A stretch of 64,000 nt of DNA from a candidate division SR1 bacterium Aalborg_AAW-1 (GTDB lineage: Bacteria > Patescibacteriota > Gracilibacteria > Absconditabacterales > Absconditicoccaceae), in NCBI GenBank assembly GCA_001007975.1, contig CP011268.1, positions 496,001 to 560,000 on the forward strand, written 5' to 3'. Of the stretch, positions 4,018-49,062 are shown one piece after another (position 1 is the stretch's first letter; each line of letters opens with the position of its first letter). The position numbers and the translations under genes are program-made. The notes under the pieces are model-generated. The model was not told the origin of the DNA. It searched no databases and saw nothing but the letters and a program-made list of their open reading frames with translations.

Positions 4018-4980
4018 ATGCATTGATTTTTAAAATGTTTCTATGGCTTTCAGAATCTTGGCGATGAGATGTTGTTTTGGTGAGTATTGGACTATATTGA
4101 TACTGCCTATGGAGATGTTGATGAGCTTACTGTAGAGGTAGATAATGTCGCATGGATGGAAGAACGATGGACAAAAAACGTCGATATGATGATACAGTTA
4201 AAACTTGCTTCTTGATTTGTTTCACAAAAGAAGATTATTAAGTTTACAACGATCTCTAAAAATATTTTGGATAATTTTCATTATGATTTCTATTTCTTTG
4301 GATGAGGGGAGGTGTTTGCAGAATCGAGATGATTTCATGGTGGTTGGAATTATCTGTTTCGTTATCTCTATCCGATTCTGCGTAAAAAATTTATCCTTTT
4401 GGGTGGTATTGAGACTGCGACAACATGGCGACAGAAATTATTGTATAAGATTGTTTTACCCAGAGCTCAAAGAGTTGTCACCAGAGATCATACTTCATTC
4501 GATGAAGTAAAACATTACACTGATAAGGCTGTTCATCATTATGATTTTGCAATTCCTGTTGTTGATAGATATAGACAGAATATGTCAGGACGTAGTCTCC
4601 AAACATTTGTTATTACCAAGCCCTATGTTATTGTCAATATTGTCCAATCGATGAGCTCAGAAGAGCTTTATCAAAAAATAAAAATATTTCTTACTGAACT
4701 GTATCCAAACTATACTCCTGTCTATCTTGCTGGTAAGTCTATCAATAGTAATGATACCATATTTGCACAATGGTTAGAATGAGCATATCCACATCTGCGT
4801 GTTTTTCAACGAGAAGAGTATTCTCTTTCAGAGCTTCTTGCTTTAATTGATGGAGCTAGTGCATGATTTGCCTCTAGACTTCATATTCTTCTTCTTTTGC
4901 AAGAATTTGAAAAACCGTTATATTCTGCTGTTTATGCAGAGAAGGTAAAAAAACTTATTACTTCAACAATTGAATTATAA
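4018..4980 (+). CDS. Polysaccharide pyruvyl transferase family protein
   Basis: 320 residues. The N-terminus MHGFLKCFYGFQNLGDEML matches the (G)xxNxGDE signature of the polysaccharide pyruvyl transferase family (CsaB, WcaK), and FFGGGEVFAES corresponds to the glycine-rich second motif. CsaB-type enzymes add ketal pyruvate to secondary wall polymers, which are what SLH domains bind. An SLH protein is encoded 3 kb downstream, so a role in S-layer anchoring is an attractive inference. Glycines in both motifs are TGA-coded. It starts 37 bp after the LTD repeat gene and is probably co-transcribed. Confidence 0.75.
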
Positions 4981-5013
4981 GAATCCTAATCTTTAAAAAT
5001 AAAATTTCCTTAT

Positions 5014-5976
5014 ATGAACAACATATCCTATGCAGTTGTTATTCCATCGAATAGAGTGTTTGATAGTATTAAACCTCTTTTGGTATCTCTTAGTGAGCAG
5101 ACTTTGTCGCCTTCACAAATTGTAATAGTGCGAGATCGTCATGCTGACAAATCAGAACTTGATACCTACATTATATCCGCCAAACTCCTTTTTGCTCAAT
5201 TTGAAAAACTCCGTATCGATATTATTCATCCATGAAGAGATAAAAAATTTACGATCTGACAAGGTGCAAGTTATGTCCGTAACTATGGAAGAAAACAAGT
5301 CACTACACCTTATATGATGTTTATTGACGATGACAATGTGTGTCCAGATGATATGGCTGAAAATCTTTTTGGATTTGTAACTCAACAAGCTCATCCAGAA
5401 TACACAGTAGTATCTCCCTTGCAGTATGATGATACACAAAGTATTATTCGTCCTGCCTTAGCGTCAGGATTTAATTTTGCTCTTTGTAGACCAGTACGAT
5501 TATGAAATCATGTGATAGAATCGTCTGACCGCTATTTCTCCTTACAGTTAGCATCATCAAACTGTCTCGCATGACCGACTGCACTATTTGAGACATATCC
5601 TTTTGATGAACAGATACCATTTGTTTATGAGGATCTCATCATGACTGCGAACATGTCGAGATGATGAGTACAACTTTTCGCTGATAGTTGGGCCCATGTC
5701 ATCCATCATCATGCTCACAGAAATAAACTTTCAGAACTTTATGCGAATACCCCAGATCGTGCCTACTATAAAGCAAAACATAGAATAATCTTGATTCATG
5801 TCCTCTGAAATTGGCGACAACAACTCCTCTTTTATCTAAGTTGATTTGTGTGACAATTAGGTTGGATTGTGTTGCATATCCTTTATTATGCTCCCATGTC
5901 TCATTGGTTCTGATTGTTTTCTGCATTATATAAAGGTACAAAAGATGGAATACTGTATATCACAAGAAGATCATAA
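5014..5976 (+). CDS. GT2 family glycosyltransferase
   Basis: 320 residues with a GT-A fold: SYAVVIPSNRVFDSI at the nucleotide-binding start, FIDDDNVCPDD as the metal-binding DxD segment (residues about 101-111), then VYEDLIMTAN as the acceptor-side ED motif and a hydrophobic C-terminal stretch (LLFYLSGFVGQLGWIVLHIL) suggesting membrane association. It probably transfers a sugar from a nucleotide donor to a surface glycan. It follows the pyruvyl-transferase-like gene by 33 bp. Several Gly codons are TGA. Acceptor and donor cannot be told from sequence. Confidence 0.8.
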
Positions 5977-41541: not shown

Positions 41542-42357
41542 ATGAAAAAACCATTAGTATCTGTATTGATCTGTACCTATAATGCTGCATCCACTATCAA
41601 GGAGACAATTTTGTCATGTTTGGATCAAACATACACTAATATTGAAATTCTGATCCATGATGATCAATCGAGTGATGATACCATCAGTATTATTCAGTCT
41701 CTGAATGATGAGAAAATACGCATAGTACCGTCATGAAAAAAACTCTGACCGTATAGATGATTGAATTTCTTACTAGATTCAGCAAAGTGAGAATATATAG
41801 CCATACAAGACCATGATGATCTCTGGTATCCTGAAAAAATTGAAAAGCAAATATCTTTTTTAGACAGTGAACAATGAAGTAAGTACATCTGATGTGGAAC
41901 TCAAACTCGTATGTGGTATGAGTGAGATAATACATATTTTGATTACTTTCTTTGAGCTAAAAATGATTATACCATTCATCCATCATTAGTTTTTAGAACT
42001 TGAGAAGAAAGATATCCAGAAGATAGGGTCTATATGAATGATGCGTATTTTCAGAAAATCATATTATGCCAATGAAAAAAACTAATCTATAATCTCGATG
42101 AAACGTTGACCATTCATCGTATCAAATCATGAGCAGACAATTATAGTTATCGTTGGTTCCAGTTCACAACAATAAATATTCAGACACTGTTCGCGTTACA
42201 TCCATGGTGGTATGCTTGTTTTGCCTTATGTTGGGAAGGAATGAGAAAAATGGTGTATCCAGTGTTACAGAAAGTTGGAAAATGAAGGTGGATTGATTAT
42301 ATAGAGAGGATACCTTTTAAGTTGCAGGGATATAAGATTAAGTATTATGGAGTTTAA
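41542..42357 (+). CDS. GT2 family glycosyltransferase
   Basis: 271 residues. LVSVLICTYNAASTIKETI, HDDQSSDDTISII and AIQDHDDLWYPEKI (DxD-type) define a GT2 enzyme; TIHPSLVFRTGEERYPED is the acceptor-side region. It begins 5 bp after comM. Its last 20 bp overlap the convergent GT4 gene. Probably transfers a sugar onto a surface glycan; specificity unknown. Confidence 0.85.
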
Positions 42358-43486
42358 GATAAAGTTCTTGATATTGTTGTATCATATGATGTAGAGAAAA
42401 TTTGTGATCAAGAGAAACAGAAATAGTATTTTTTTGTTTAATCGCTCATTGAAATCATTGTAGAAGATCATCATAGTCTTTATATTTTGCTATGTAATTA
42501 CCTTTTTTGTTAGTTATAATTTCTGGTACTCATCACGTGTTAAATGTTATTACAGGACATCAGCAAGCCAAACTTTCTGCTACTACTAATCCAAAACTAT
42601 CAGCTAAAGTAGGGTATAAAAAGATATCAGCAGCAGAAAAATAGAGAGCTATATCTTGTTGAGATATAAAAGGAAGTTCAATAATATTTTCATAAGAATT
42701 ATATGTATGGTTTCATATAGTCATAAAGAGTACCGATGAGTCAGATTTATATTGTTTTGCAAGTTTTTTGACATATTGCAATCCTTTTAGATTACTTTTA
42801 GAACCACTTCAGGCGATACTAATACTTATAGTTTTATCTAAAGGTAATCAGAGTTGATTTCTTGCTTGTATTTTGTCTGTTTCTTTGAAAATACTTGTAT
42901 TGATACCATTATAAATAGTATATATAGCATTACTTCATACTATTGGATCATTTTTGATTTTATTACTCATCCAATCTGATACTCATACATACGTTATGGG
43001 AAGCGGTTGTAAGACTTCTAATCTTTTATTATACTGAAAGTTTTTCTTATATGGAAATAGGTTATTGTTTTGATCATTTCAAGATACTATCCAGTCATCA
43101 TGTAAAGTCATTATGATTTTTTTTTCTGTAGATATTTTGTCGAGATCATGTCGATTAAAATATCCTCACTGGATACTATGGAGATGAATAATGTCTGCTT
43201 GTTGATAAAAAACTTGTTGTGACAGTCGCTTGTAATCTATACATTCAGGTGTCATCAGCTCAAACAAAAAATTAAGTCAGACAGCCCCTTTGTATCTTAT
43301 TGTCTTATATCGTTTCGATGTCGTTGTTATATATTTGCTTGTGGTATTTTTTTGTCCTACAAAATCATATCATACGAGTTGATGAGAAGAAAATTGTCCT
43401 GAATCAAGACCATCAATAATCGATTGACACAAGCCTGCAGCACCACTACGTCCAGCGATGAGATTGATATGAAGAATATGTATCAT
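42338..43486 (-). CDS. GT4 family glycosyltransferase
   Basis: 382 residues, GT-B fold. ILHINLIAGRSGAAGLCQSI at the N-terminus, DIIHLHSIQGGYFN, and the C-terminal nucleotide-binding signature ADSFGLVVAESLACGCPVI followed by FNTGGVPEII. A retaining transferase for surface glycan assembly, last gene of the leftward operon. Its start overlaps the stop of the upstream gene by one base (TAATG). More than 15 glycines are TGA. Confidence 0.88.
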
Positions 43487-44298
43487 TATACAAATGGCTT
43501 ATCTGATAAACGATTGAGTTTATTTATTCGTCAAATAACTTTTTCTGGTAATATATTGAGGGCAATATTTCCTACTAATCATTTTATAAAAGATGGATAC
43601 TCTTTTCTGTATTTCCAACAAAGTTTGAGCGCAAGTTGTTGTTGTTTTCTACGATTTTGTAAGGAAACTCATTGAGGATTGACACGATAGAGTGTTGTAA
43701 AATCTTGTATATTATGAAGCTTATAGTATTTCCCTAACCTCAACCGCAATTCGTGATCTTCCATAAGATTGTAGTCAGGATTATAACTTCAGTATTTATC
43801 AATCGCTTCTTTTTTTATCATAATACTGGAATGAGAAAATTGTGTAGAAAGTAACATACGATTACGGATTTGCTGATCATTTTCTTGCATATAATTTTTT
43901 GTTTGTTCTTTTGTTATCATCTCTTCTAGAATAATGTTTGTCCCACAAAGACCATACTCTGGATGTGAATGTAAGAAATTAAATTGTTTTTGAAGTTTAT
44001 AATCATCAATCCAGATATCATCATCATCAATACGAGCAATATATTCTCATTGTGCAACTTCTAAGCCTTTATTAAGTGTTTTGGTGAGTTTAAGATTATG
44101 TTCATTTTTTATATACAGTATTCTTTTATCTTTGTGTTGGTATTCTATAATTGTTTTTTCAATATCATTCGTTGAGGCATCATTAATGATAATAAGTTCA
44201 AAATTTTTAAATGATTGCAAAAGTACGGATTCTATCGATTGTGAGAGTCGTTCTTTGTTACTATTGTATACTGGGAGAATGATAGATATTTTAGGCAT
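43486..44298 (-). CDS. GT2 family glycosyltransferase
   Basis: 270 residues. KISIILPVYNSNKERLSQSI, IIINDASTNDIEKT and YIARIDDDDIWIDDYKLQ (DDDD metal site), then NLMEDHELRLRL as the ED motif. Inverting transferase in the glycan operon, 5 bp after the GT6 gene. Confidence 0.88.
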
Positions 44299-44303
44299 AT
44301 ATT

Positions 44304-45152
44304 TTATTTATGAAATAATGAATAGAAAAGGCTATAAATAATTCTAGTAGTAACATAAATAGATTTAATATAAATTATCTTTAATATAGATATTTTAGGC
44401 ATTTTACTACTACGTAGTTTGTCTTTTGATCAAATAAATATTTCTTTACTCCTGCTCATAATTTTTACAGGAAATTGTGGAAACCATCATGCTTCTGGAT
44501 ATCAGTATGAAAGATCAAGGTTTTTTACATCAGTACGATCAAGAAAAAATTTATTTAGCATAGACTCATCATATCGGATAGCAGAAATATTATTTTCATA
44601 ATCTTGTTGTATTCGTTTATCACATGTTTTACAAAGTTCTAGAAAATCAAATGTTTTTCCTCAATTTAGAGCTCATAAATAATAATTTTTTCAAGATCAA
44701 TATGGAATATATGCTTTAGAGTCAGGATTTCTATCATAAGGGAATGTATCATTTATTTTATTATAATATGAAAAATGTAATAAAGCCATATAATTTTTAT
44801 TTTCAGTAGGCAAAAAATCTTTTTTGAAAATAAAATCTTTAAATTGAAAATTTGCATTAAAAAATACTATATAATCATGTTTTTCTAAAAGAGTTTTTTG
44901 TGATAAAAATATTCTGAAACGATAAAGAGTTTGGTCTGGTCGTCAAAGAGCCTTTTGATATATGAAAGTAACGTTTTTGATTTGAAGAGATAGTAGTTTT
45001 TTATCATCTGTTCGTATATAATAATGTTTATCTATATCGTTGTCTTTAGAAAAAAAATATTTTTCACTACTAGTAAAAAAGAGATCTCGATATCTAGAGT
45101 ATGTTCAAGTGCAAAAATAAAGTATTGCTATTGTTTCTTTTTTATTACTCAT
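44304..45152 (-). CDS. GT6 glycosyltransferase (ABO/alpha-galactosyl type)
   Basis: 282 residues. ILYFCTGTYSRYRDLFF opens a GT-A domain. IVFFNANFQF holds an NxN where mammalian GT6 enzymes have DVD, as known for bacterial GT6. YDRNPDSKAYIPYGSGKNYY, LGALNGGKTFDFLELCKTC and NNISAIRYDESMLNKFF align with the ABO transferase regions around YERRPxSxAYIP, YYxGxxxGG and HDESHLNKYL. GT6 enzymes move Gal or GalNAc from UDP to beta-Gal in alpha-1,3 linkage with retention. The NxN forms are reported to be metal-independent. The start overlaps the GT32 stop by 8 bp. Confidence 0.85.
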
Positions 45153-45900
45153 ATCAATATACTTTTGGATCTAAAATACCTAATTTAATTAATACTTTTT
45201 TGATAGGTTTACGGAGTCATATTTTTTCTAATCATATTCATACATAGTGTTTACATCGCATTCGATTTGTTATTCGGGATAATTTACTATAGTGTATTGT
45301 ATAAGAATTTTGCGTAACATAATGTTTTTTATTTTCTTCAGGTGTTTTGTGGCGATGATTATAGTCAATAGGTTCAAAATATTCTTTAGGATAAATTACT
45401 ATTCCTTCTTGTAAATGATACGTTTTTTTTATATCTCGATTTTTTGGTAAACCATAATTATATAATATATCAGTAATGATTTTATTATTACCACTACCTT
45501 GTTTAGCTTTATCATAATATTCTAAAATAGACTTAAAGAAAGGATGTCATTTTTCTCATCAAATCACTGCAGTTCAAATATTTTTTTCATCTGCAAATCA
45601 TAAAAAAACCCTATTTTCTAGAAAGTAATCTAATCATTTTATAAGTTCTATATCTGTATCTAAATATATTCATCATTCATGATATAATCACCAAATTCTA
45701 ACATAGTCAGATAGAAATGCCCATTGTTTTTTTTCATAAGCTTTTTGGGTGTAGTGATGTTTCGTATAGTCAAAATTATTTTCTGTAAATTCAAAAAAGT
45801 TATATTGAGAAAGATTTTTTCTCCATGATTTAAGACATACATTAGACAGTCAATCTTTTTTTTTTCATCCAAACCAACAACTAAAAATCTTTTTTTGCAT
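45145..45900 (-). CDS. GT32-like (OCH1/capsular) glycosyltransferase
   Basis: 251 residues. KKIFSCWFGG at the N-terminus, then WAFLSDYVRIWGLYHEGGIY and LDTDIELIKGLD: the DxD motif after a conserved Asp-Tyr-x-Arg-x-x-x-L segment is typical of the Gly_transf_sug (GT32) family. It likely adds a sugar to the surface glycan in the same operon. Two adjacent TGA codons supply the GG before IYLDTD. Confidence 0.82.
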
Positions 45901-45933
45901 AGTGTAGTAATACTAATAAAGATAAAATAAATT

Positions 45934-46623
45934 TTATCAATAATATTTTTTTACAGTATTAAAAAAATATTCGTCATTAAAATCTATATTACAGGTTTTT
46001 AATACATTTTCAATTTTGTTTATATCAATTATTGGGCTTCATCATTTGTTTTCTAGAGAATATAGTATTTTTTTGTTCATTATCTTTTCAAATGCTTCAA
46101 TAATTTCACTCATTGATGTCATTTTTGCATTACCTATTGTGATTATATCATTTTTAAAAATACTGTTTTCATAAATATGATTAACAATAGTATATAAATC
46201 ATCTAAATCAATGAAATTTCTTTTTGCATTACTTCGAATATTGATCGGTTGATTCGCTTGAATCTTATTATAAAAATTATTTAAAATAGTATGAGGATTG
46301 TTTGTATTTCCTATAGGATTGGAAATTCTAAAGATCAGAAAATTATTGAGTTGTTTAATAGTTTCCTCTATGTGCTTTTTGTGTATAACATATTTATTAT
46401 TATTCATTGATTCATCTGTGACGCTACATGAACTAAAATAAATTAATAATTTTCACTTAGTTGTATTAATAATATCATCAAGTAAAATCTGTTCTTTATT
46501 AAATTCATCATCATTAAGGTTTTGAGAATTCGATACTCAAGAAGCAAAAATCACAACATTATTATCATGTTGATAATTATTTTCTTTAAACTTAGAAGCT
46601 ATCATACCATTTCAAATTATCAT
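45934..46623 (-). CDS. Short NAD-dependent epimerase/dehydratase-like protein
   Basis: 229 residues. MIIGNGMIASKFKE is the nucleotide-binding loop (GxGxxG-like), IYFSSCSV the serine motif, YVIHKKHIEE the YxxxK catalytic pair, and FRISNPIGNTNNP and DLDDLYTIVNHIYE typical of extended SDR sugar-nucleotide enzymes. It is shorter than the usual 300 residues, mainly in the N-terminal half. Probably makes or modif ies the sugar donor for this operon. Confidence 0.78.
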
Positions 46624-46649
46624 TTTTTGTCATTAAAAAGACTAAATAT

Positions 46650-47366
46650 TTATTTTTTACATATTGTAATAATTTGTCAGGTGTATGTTTTGGGAAAAGA
46701 AAATCACAAAATAGTGTAGATAATTTTTGTTATTCAAATAGCAGTTTTATGTAAAATTCTTTTAAAAATAGTGTTTCAAATATATTGATTATAATGAGAA
46801 ATAGTAGAAAAGTTTCCATGTTCATGTAATAATTGAGAAAAAGAAATATAGTTGTAAAGAGAATAGTGTGTTATATCTGTATAGCGAGAACCAGTAGCTC
46901 ATAATATACTATCAGCGTTAGGCATATAGTTAATTCGCATACCTCCTTCCTGTAAAAAATGATTCATTTTATTAATTCGTACTATTCTTTCTTCTTTACC
47001 TAAATGTTCAAAAATATTTGAGGAAAAAATAATATTATATTGTGTAGTATTTGTATTAAAAAAATCAAATACATCCTGATGATGAAAAGTATAATGAGGC
47101 ATGTTTTTTTCTAGCTCATTTTGGTATGTATTATCAATATCTACTCAAGTATAGTTTTTATATCACATGCTATTCATATATGTAGAAAAATATCATTGTC
47201 CATATCAAATATCCAATATAGTAGTGTTCTTATTGGTTGGCAAAAATTTTCATATTTCATACATGAATTGCATATGGATGTTTTTTTCATCTATTACATT
47301 TCTTGATTTATATCAAATGTGATTTTTAAAATACGTATTTGACCCTCAAACATGTGTATTGTTCAT
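46650..47366 (-). CDS. SAM-dependent methyltransferase
   Basis: 238 residues. TTILDIGYGQGYFSTYM is motif I of class I methyltransferases, YTGVDIDNTY motif II, NIIFSSNIFEHLGKEE motif IV with the His of the SAM pocket. Possibly caps or decorates the glycan made by this operon. It lies 26 bp upstream of the epimerase gene in the direction of transcription. UGA supplies both glycines of DIG-YG-G. Confidence 0.82.
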
Positions 47367-47381
47367 TGTGAAAAGTAATTA

Positions 47382-48203
47382 TTAAAATATTGGTTTAATT
47401 ACTGGTATAAGCATTTTTTTTCTAATTGTATAGCTCTCAATACAATCTTTTATATGCTTAGGAACAAGAAATAGATATATTTTTTGTAACAAAGTGGGCT
47501 TTTTTTGATTTTGTTGCTTACCGATATTAGAACTGTTAGTATTTCGTAAATGATTGTGATATACCGTCTGTTTAGGATATTCTAAGAATACTTCTTTGTT
47601 TCATATTTTGTGGGCTACTACATAAATAAGATTTGGATAAGAAGATATACTAAGATTAGCATGATATACTTCTGGGAAAGATAATAAATCTTTTATCATA
47701 TACCATCATCACTTTTTATAAACAAAACACTTTGTTTTATATCATCTTTCTTCAGAAAAAAATCTATAAAAGAAATCAGGTGAAAATTGATAAAATCCAT
47801 GATTAACATGATTATTCATAGGTAGTATTCCTATATAATATCCTCATGTTTTTATTATGTCGTGGTAATTATAAAATGCTTGTACAGGATTAAACATATG
47901 CTCACTTGATCAACCATCAAAGATTATATCATATTGATGGTGAAAATTCGGATCTATAGGAGTATTGAAATCATGAGTGTAAGTTGGTCATTCATAATCT
48001 GAAAAATCTATAGAATCAAGTATATTCACTTTTCGTCTTTTTATCCAAATGTGATCAGTATATTCTTCTTTTGGTATTCAAAATTTATTCAGTATTTTTT
48101 GATCAATATAATTAGTCTGTCTTCAAATGGTTAATATTTTTTTATTCAAAAAAAGATCTTTGTTTATATCTAGAAAATGAAAGGATTCTGTGTTAACGCC
48201 CAT
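47382..48203 (-). CDS. Methyltransferase-like protein, first gene of the glycan operon
   Basis: 273 residues. NKKILTIGRQTNYIDQKIL resembles a degenerate motif I, YDIIFDGGSSEHMFNPVQAF the motif IV region of SAM methyltransferases acting in sugar loci, and KTGGYYIGILPMNNHVNHGF the following strand and loop. Its catalytic residues are unclear. It is the first gene after the operator-promoter at 48224-48262. Confidence 0.6.
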
Positions 48204-48324: not shown

Positions 48325-49062
48325 TTAATATCACCTCGCTACATACTGAATCAATCTGATAATAGTATATGAACCGATCACTAATCCAAGTCAGATAAGA
48401 AGTTTTTTTATATTGCCTTTGAGGTTTCCTGTAGAACTTTCATCCATTCCTCCTTGGACATATCTAAATCACATGACCACAAGCGCTATAACCATGAGTG
48501 TTCCAACGAAACTTGTTGCTGCTAGTACGATATCTTGTACGAAGAGTGTTGGGTTTGATGTAGTGTCAGAAGTACGAATACCTAATGTTTTATTAATATT
48601 TCGGCTACAAGTTCCATTTCTCATTTGTTCAGGACTACATTCTATTCCAAGATTACCATAAGCATTGTTTATACATTCTCTTTTCCCATCTGCTCAAGTA
48701 TCTGTTAGTCAAGCTGCACAAATACATGTTCATTGAGATGAATTCCATATAGAGTATTTGGGATTGTTTCATCCACAAAGTTTCTGAGTGAGATATTCTT
48801 GAGAAAGAGTTGAACATGATACACTATTATTATTCGATCATCCATTACACATACATGCTTTTTCTTGTGATGTGCTTATCATATTTACTTCTGATCCATA
48901 TTGTTTAGAACATTTATTCAATAGATCATTTTCTAGGTCTATGGTAGGAATATTTGTGGGAGGAGTGCTAACACCAACAGGCTGTACTATTACTGGAGTA
49001 AGTTCTTCATTAGAAGACTGAGCATATGTTTTTTGAATGAAGAAGAGTTTTGTTATATCCAT
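48325..49062 (-). CDS. Cys-rich secreted/membrane protein with two C-terminal spans
   Basis: 245 residues. A short N-terminus ending KTYAQSS resembles a signal cleavage region, though the preceding hydrophobic part is brief; an in-frame TAA two codons upstream excludes an earlier start. About 10 Cys lie in residues 50-155 with CxC pairs (ACMCNGG, TCICAAG), suggesting disulfides. Two membrane segments follow (FVGTLMVIALVVMGFRYVQG and IKKLLIGLGLVIGSYTIIRL), arranged like TrbC/VirB2-type pilins. Function unknown. Confidence 0.65.

Follow-up and report, generated by a model that had tools for sequence, protein, structure and literature searches.

The human ABO blood-group transferases belong to glycosyltransferase family 6 (GT6), and an open reading frame of candidate division SR1 bacterium Aalborg_AAW-1 that resembles them raises the question of whether it is a genuine member of the family, how its codons must be read and what its product may do. 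The frame lies at 44304-45152 on the minus strand of the window, the 64,000-nucleotide stretch of contig CP011268.1 (positions 496,001 to 560,000) analysed here. These coordinates are exact. The gene starts with ATG and encodes 282 residues, and its frame, with nine in-frame TGA codons, is open only when TGA is a sense codon. It is the single GT6 gene in a single-contig genome of 1,044,756 bases, and the bacterium that carries it is tiny and probably parasitic.

With CGA read as Arg, the product matches PF03414 with 93 bits (E = 1.9e-26); with CGA read as Trp, the match over residues 4-218 has 104.9 bits (E = 4.7e-30), the cut-off being 25. The NCBIfam model NF041524 ('family 6') gives 217.9 bits (E = 1.3e-64) in the table 25 reading, which is under its curated threshold of 250, so the ORF is not assigned to that subfamily. 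The best match in a PDB sequence search is BoGT6a of Bacteroides ovatus (4AYJ, E = 6e-49), followed by the human ABO enzymes, and reading CGA as Trp instead of Arg lifts the BoGT6a score to 196 bits, from 170. These matches are far above chance. An AlphaFold2 model (pLDDT 93.5) has the GT6 fold; the top Foldseek match is BoGT6a (4CJ8, TM 0.92 by target length), and the best 50 matches listed are all GT6 enzymes. Pfam, NCBIfam, the PDB, the structure prediction and a 103-member GT6 tree all point the same way: the ORF is a genuine CAZy GT6 of the NAN-motif bacterial type. The family membership put forward in the initial annotation is thus confirmed, both by sequence and by the structure prediction, which it had named as a possible refuting test. 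The enzyme is of a known kind in an unusual, recoded host: the family is ordinary and the find is sound.

The catalytic residues, like the fold and the family, can be assigned by comparison. The three motif regions previously noted are present, spelled YDRNPDSKAYIP, YYLGALNGG and WYDESMLNKF (RYDESMLNKF under table 25). In an alignment of 86 bacterial and 82 phage-type GT6s with BoGT6a, a NAN motif (residues 99-101; 44850-44858, minus strand) stands in place of DXD and faces N95-A96-N97 of BoGT6a. Both Asn residues are present in all 86 bacterial rows; the phage enzymes are of the DXD type in 77 of 82 cases, with a few NXN. The metal-independent type that had been proposed is borne out to the extent that N99-A100-N101 can predict it. 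The catalytic Glu (E196, E192 in BoGT6a) occurs in 86/86 bacterial rows and the C-terminal Lys (K236, K231 in BoGT6a) in 84/86, and the conserved Arg is found at residue 247. Among the BoGT6a residues that contact UDP-GalNAc (PMC3961637), T10, Y13, T70, R73, N95, A96, H122, D191, E192 and K231 are kept, as is N97 of the NAN motif, and W66 and W189 are matched once CGA is read as Trp. BoGT6a H190 is replaced by Tyr194, a change with two other cases among the 86 bacterial rows.

The two Trp positions bring the genetic code into the active site. Seven of the nine TGA codons face glycines of BoGT6a (G16, G70, G152, G154, G160, G164 and G222). Five residues are Arg under table 25 (22, 47, 71, 180 and 193); all are CGA codons, and all face Trp or Phe in BoGT6a. 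Positions 22, 71 and 193 fall in near-invariant Trp columns of the alignment and 47 in a Phe column; 180 faces a BoGT6a Trp where most other GT6s have Asn and 16 of the 86 bacterial rows have Arg. Table 25 would therefore put Arg at the equivalents of the near-invariant W66 and W189, an arrangement that the other 168 GT6 rows all lack. Such residues could be taken as signs of a decaying or non-functional gene. Decay is extremely unlikely, because matching tRNAs decode both CGA codons as Trp, nothing interrupts the frame and the key residues are retained.

CGA and CGG encode Trp in Absconditabacteria (Shulgina and Eddy 2021, PMC8629427), and the published rule for Trp identity of UCG and CCG tRNAs is G73 and A/G1:U72 without A20 (PMC8629427). 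With base positions assigned by hand from printed sequences, the tRNA-UCG and tRNA-CCG of this genome have G73 and A/G1:U72 and lack A20, like tRNA-Trp-CCA, whereas tRNA-Arg-UCU has A73 and A20. The tRNA-UCA, which reads UGA as Gly, has G1:C72, C2:G71, G3:C70 and U73. Two other proteins give the same reading. The sole CGA of ribonucleotide reductase (CGA331) aligns with a Trp of 6DQX, and the sole Trp codon of a neighbouring short-chain dehydrogenase-like gene (SDR), CGA130, faces a TGG-coded Trp in genome G111, described below. From aligned columns and tRNAs together, UGA is Gly here and CGA is Trp; for CGG, the reading as Trp comes from the CCG tRNA and the published rule only. The genome fits the code described for Absconditabacteria (PMC8629427), and no difference from it was found. 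The initial annotation was right that the gene is adapted to TGA as Gly, and it missed CGA as Trp by taking code 25 as the full code. Its proposed construct, with TGA alone recoded, would have Arg where BoGT6a has Trp66 and Trp189 and so mutate the active site, because CGA is Trp here; the gene reads correctly only with both codon changes applied. Annotation of absconditabacterial enzymes with table 25 puts Arg at active-site Trp positions, an error that would undermine both assays and predictions of specificity. This second recoded codon in the active site is one of the two main new points of the analysis; the other concerns the company that the gene keeps.

The GT6 gene is the fifth of seven genes that run in the same direction from 48203 down to 42338, all on the minus strand. 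The first encodes a methyltransferase-like protein (47382-48203), with relatives at 36% and 30% identity that immediately precede GT6 in Nomurabacteria (L028) and on a viral contig (L101). It is followed by a class I SAM methyltransferase (46650-47366; PF13649, E = 2.2e-10) and by the SDR (45934-46623), a short NAD-dependent epimerase-like protein that retains GNGMIAS and YVIHK, matches PHROG 540 (nucleotide-sugar epimerase, E = 1.3e-8) and is 36% identical to an annotated Spirosoma epimerase-family protein. A GT32-like glycosyltransferase (45145-45900; PF04488, E = 2e-11) overlaps the start of GT6 by 8 nt. Downstream by 5 nt is a GT2 glycosyltransferase (43486-44298; PF00535, E = 3.1e-30), and a GT4 glycosyltransferase (42338-43486; PF00534, E = 1.2e-18) ends the cluster. 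Between 44 and 48 kb, GC makes up 23-26% of the sequence, compared with 29-41% in its surroundings. Wzx-like flippases are encoded elsewhere in the genome, and the 1.5 kb ComM flanks of 29 relatives contain none of the window genes tested. A type IV secretion pilin-like protein (48325-49062, minus strand), with a PF18895 match just below the cut-off, adjoins the cluster. A second small glycan locus, consisting of a polysaccharide pyruvyl transferase and a GT2, lies at 4018-5976 of the window.

GT6 is rare around this bacterium. Of the 49 genomes of the order one has it, and 3 of 353 in the class have a match above the cut-off; among 380 genomes sampled from the whole phylum, the sole case is this genome itself; the literature search found no published GT6 from Absconditabacteria, and the enzyme is now added to that sparse record in the class. 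A direct protein search of genome contigs and viral contigs gave no matches, and an alignment query found 269 relatives among the former and 341 among the latter. Elsewhere the family is found in Psychrobacter, Paenibacillus, Mucilaginibacter, Kuenenia, three Nomurabacteria and cyanophages. The closest relative (47% identity) is in G111 (L003/L248), which belongs to another family of the same class and reads UGA as Gly. The phylogeny that had been proposed as a check places the two as sisters, with an SH-aLRT of 96 in the quick tree and UFB 82-84 and SH-aLRT 91-92 in the careful trees; support for this pair is moderate, and both branches are long. G111 also has a counterpart of the SDR (L248:12089-12772; 48% identity) 1.7 kb from its GT6. 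A full-length SDR is present in only 3 of the 353 class genomes, and the other GT6 loci examined, with flanks of 1.5-8 kb, contain no relative of it. The pairing of the closest GT6 with the same SDR, in a UGA = Gly bacterium from a different family, suggests a GT6-plus-SDR module common to recoded bacteria of two families, which offers a small test case for gene exchange among bacteria with a common altered genetic code. The G111 enzyme differs in its TGG-coded Trp, with no CGA in the stretch, and in its surroundings, where RmlA is encoded nearby and GalE about 8 kb from the GT6 gene.

Codon usage bears on how long the gene has been resident. Its Gly codons are TGA in 9 of 10 cases, compared with 234 of 607 (38%) in other window genes (Fisher p = 0.0014), and its Trp codons are CGA in 5 of 6, compared with 36 of 126 (29%) for CGA plus CGG outside the cluster (Fisher p = 0.011); the counts are small, and the comparison genes, those of the window outside the cluster, were chosen by eye. 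The earlier view that the gene is not a very recent import stands, although not on the ground of its adaptation to UGA. TGA also encodes 78% of Gly in the G111 region, and because the closest GT6 itself belongs to a UGA = Gly bacterium, this adaptation alone cannot date an import. The change from TGG to CGA requires two substitutions, so CGA-coded Trp is the better argument, and it argues for long residence in a lineage whose code has UGA as Gly and CGA as Trp. A recent import from gut or oral Bacteroidota, mimicking vertebrate blood-group glycans, would be in keeping with BoGT6a as the best characterised homologue (41-43% identity), with relatives in Prevotella and Phocaeicola, and with a Prevotella/Sphingobacterium group that adjoins the G111 pair in one careful tree, though weakly (76/83). 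It is nevertheless very improbable: plasmids contain no DNA-level match, identity to homologues does not exceed 47%, the nearest GT6 belongs to a bacterium with UGA = Gly, the five CGA Trp codons exceed the level of other window genes, and GT6 is common outside animals. PF01531 (GT11 alpha-1,2-fucosyltransferase, which in a blood-group mimicry system would make the H-type acceptor) has no match in the genome, although the control genomes are equally without one. The host-glycan mimicry with which the initial annotation had linked the family finds no support here, GT6 being common in free-living bacteria and phages.

All these observations are very probably best explained by a retaining, metal-independent GT6 that acts on a surface glycan, has long been resident and forms a module with the SDR. 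The enzyme would be of the GT-A type and would carry out a late step of the cluster at 42338-48203. It would bind UDP-Gal, UDP-GalNAc or both without Mn2+ through N99, A100, N101, Tyr18, Trp71, Lys236 and Arg247, with Glu196 as the catalytic residue. We infer that the sugar is moved in alpha-1,3 linkage onto a beta-galactosyl-type acceptor of a cell-envelope glycan, so that galactose or N-acetylgalactosamine is probably added to a surface sugar. A predicted hydrophobic helix at residues 255-279 may anchor the enzyme to the membrane. The same module would also occur in the recoded bacterium of the other family.

The donor site has its own distinctive features. The tripeptide equivalent to ABO codons 266-268 is LGA, compared with AGG in BoGT6a and QGS in the G111 enzyme, and Leu at its first position is found in 0 of 86 bacterial rows. 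LGA is also the tripeptide of human cis-AB01, the cis-AB type responsible for both A and B (PMC5278553); read across from ABO, it may mean that the donor is Gal, GalNAc or both. The human ABO transferases (GTA, GTB and cis-AB) have the same fold, with about 26% identity and a TM of about 0.7, but they are Golgi membrane proteins that carry DXD and depend on Mn2+. BoGT6a, at about 42% identity, is much closer, alike in GT-A fold, NAN motif, catalytic Glu, Lys231 and most UDP-GalNAc contacts, and unlike in its tripeptide, its His190 and its lack of the C-terminal helix, of recoding and of a host genome without detected GalE. Given LGA and Tyr194, the specificity may differ from that of BoGT6a.

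A larger departure, in which donor or acceptor is not Gal/GalNAc on beta-Gal, is suggested by the sugar supply. Two models find no GalE in this genome (single contig, 98% complete), with controls positive in all 14 genomes; a PF01370 match was rejected as GalE because it is a classical SDR. Two GalU-like genes make UDP-Glc a likely product, and both LGA and Tyr194 are unusual. Yet the catalytic residues are intact, UDP-Gal could come from the neighbouring SDR or by import from a host cell, and a GalE may escape a profile search, which makes such a departure unlikely. In G111 the SDR need not supply UDP-Gal, since GalE lies about 8 kb from its GT6. A wider and rather doubtful reading is that recoding channels gene exchange, so that the module circulates among UGA = Gly bacteria and has drifted here to CGA-coded Trp and a cis-AB-like LGA, with dual use of Gal and GalNAc and UDP-hexose from the SDR or a host cell.

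Several candidate relatives were set aside. G118 (L002/L249) was rejected as kin because its contig uses TGA as stop and is either a binning contaminant or from an unrecoded genome; this AT-rich contig (G118:C12) carries GT6, a GT11-like gene and the TGA stop in a genome grouped with UGA = Gly bacteria. The L004 match is under the cut-off and has an internal TAA. The best-matching 'phage' records, L005 and L006, group with Gemmiger GT6s and are probably bacterial fragments. Other GT6 loci have unusual arrangements. Two adjacent GT6 genes lie on one viral contig (IMG/VR contigs L101, L102, L157 and L164). In Nomurabacteria, a further lineage of the candidate phyla, GT6 is fused to a GT2 domain (L028:8016-9626) or to a C-terminal half that matches no Pfam family (L026:8010-9590). 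A Kuenenia contig (L024:2101-3741) encodes a GT6-GT11 fucosyltransferase fusion of 546 residues, which could both make and cap an H-type acceptor.
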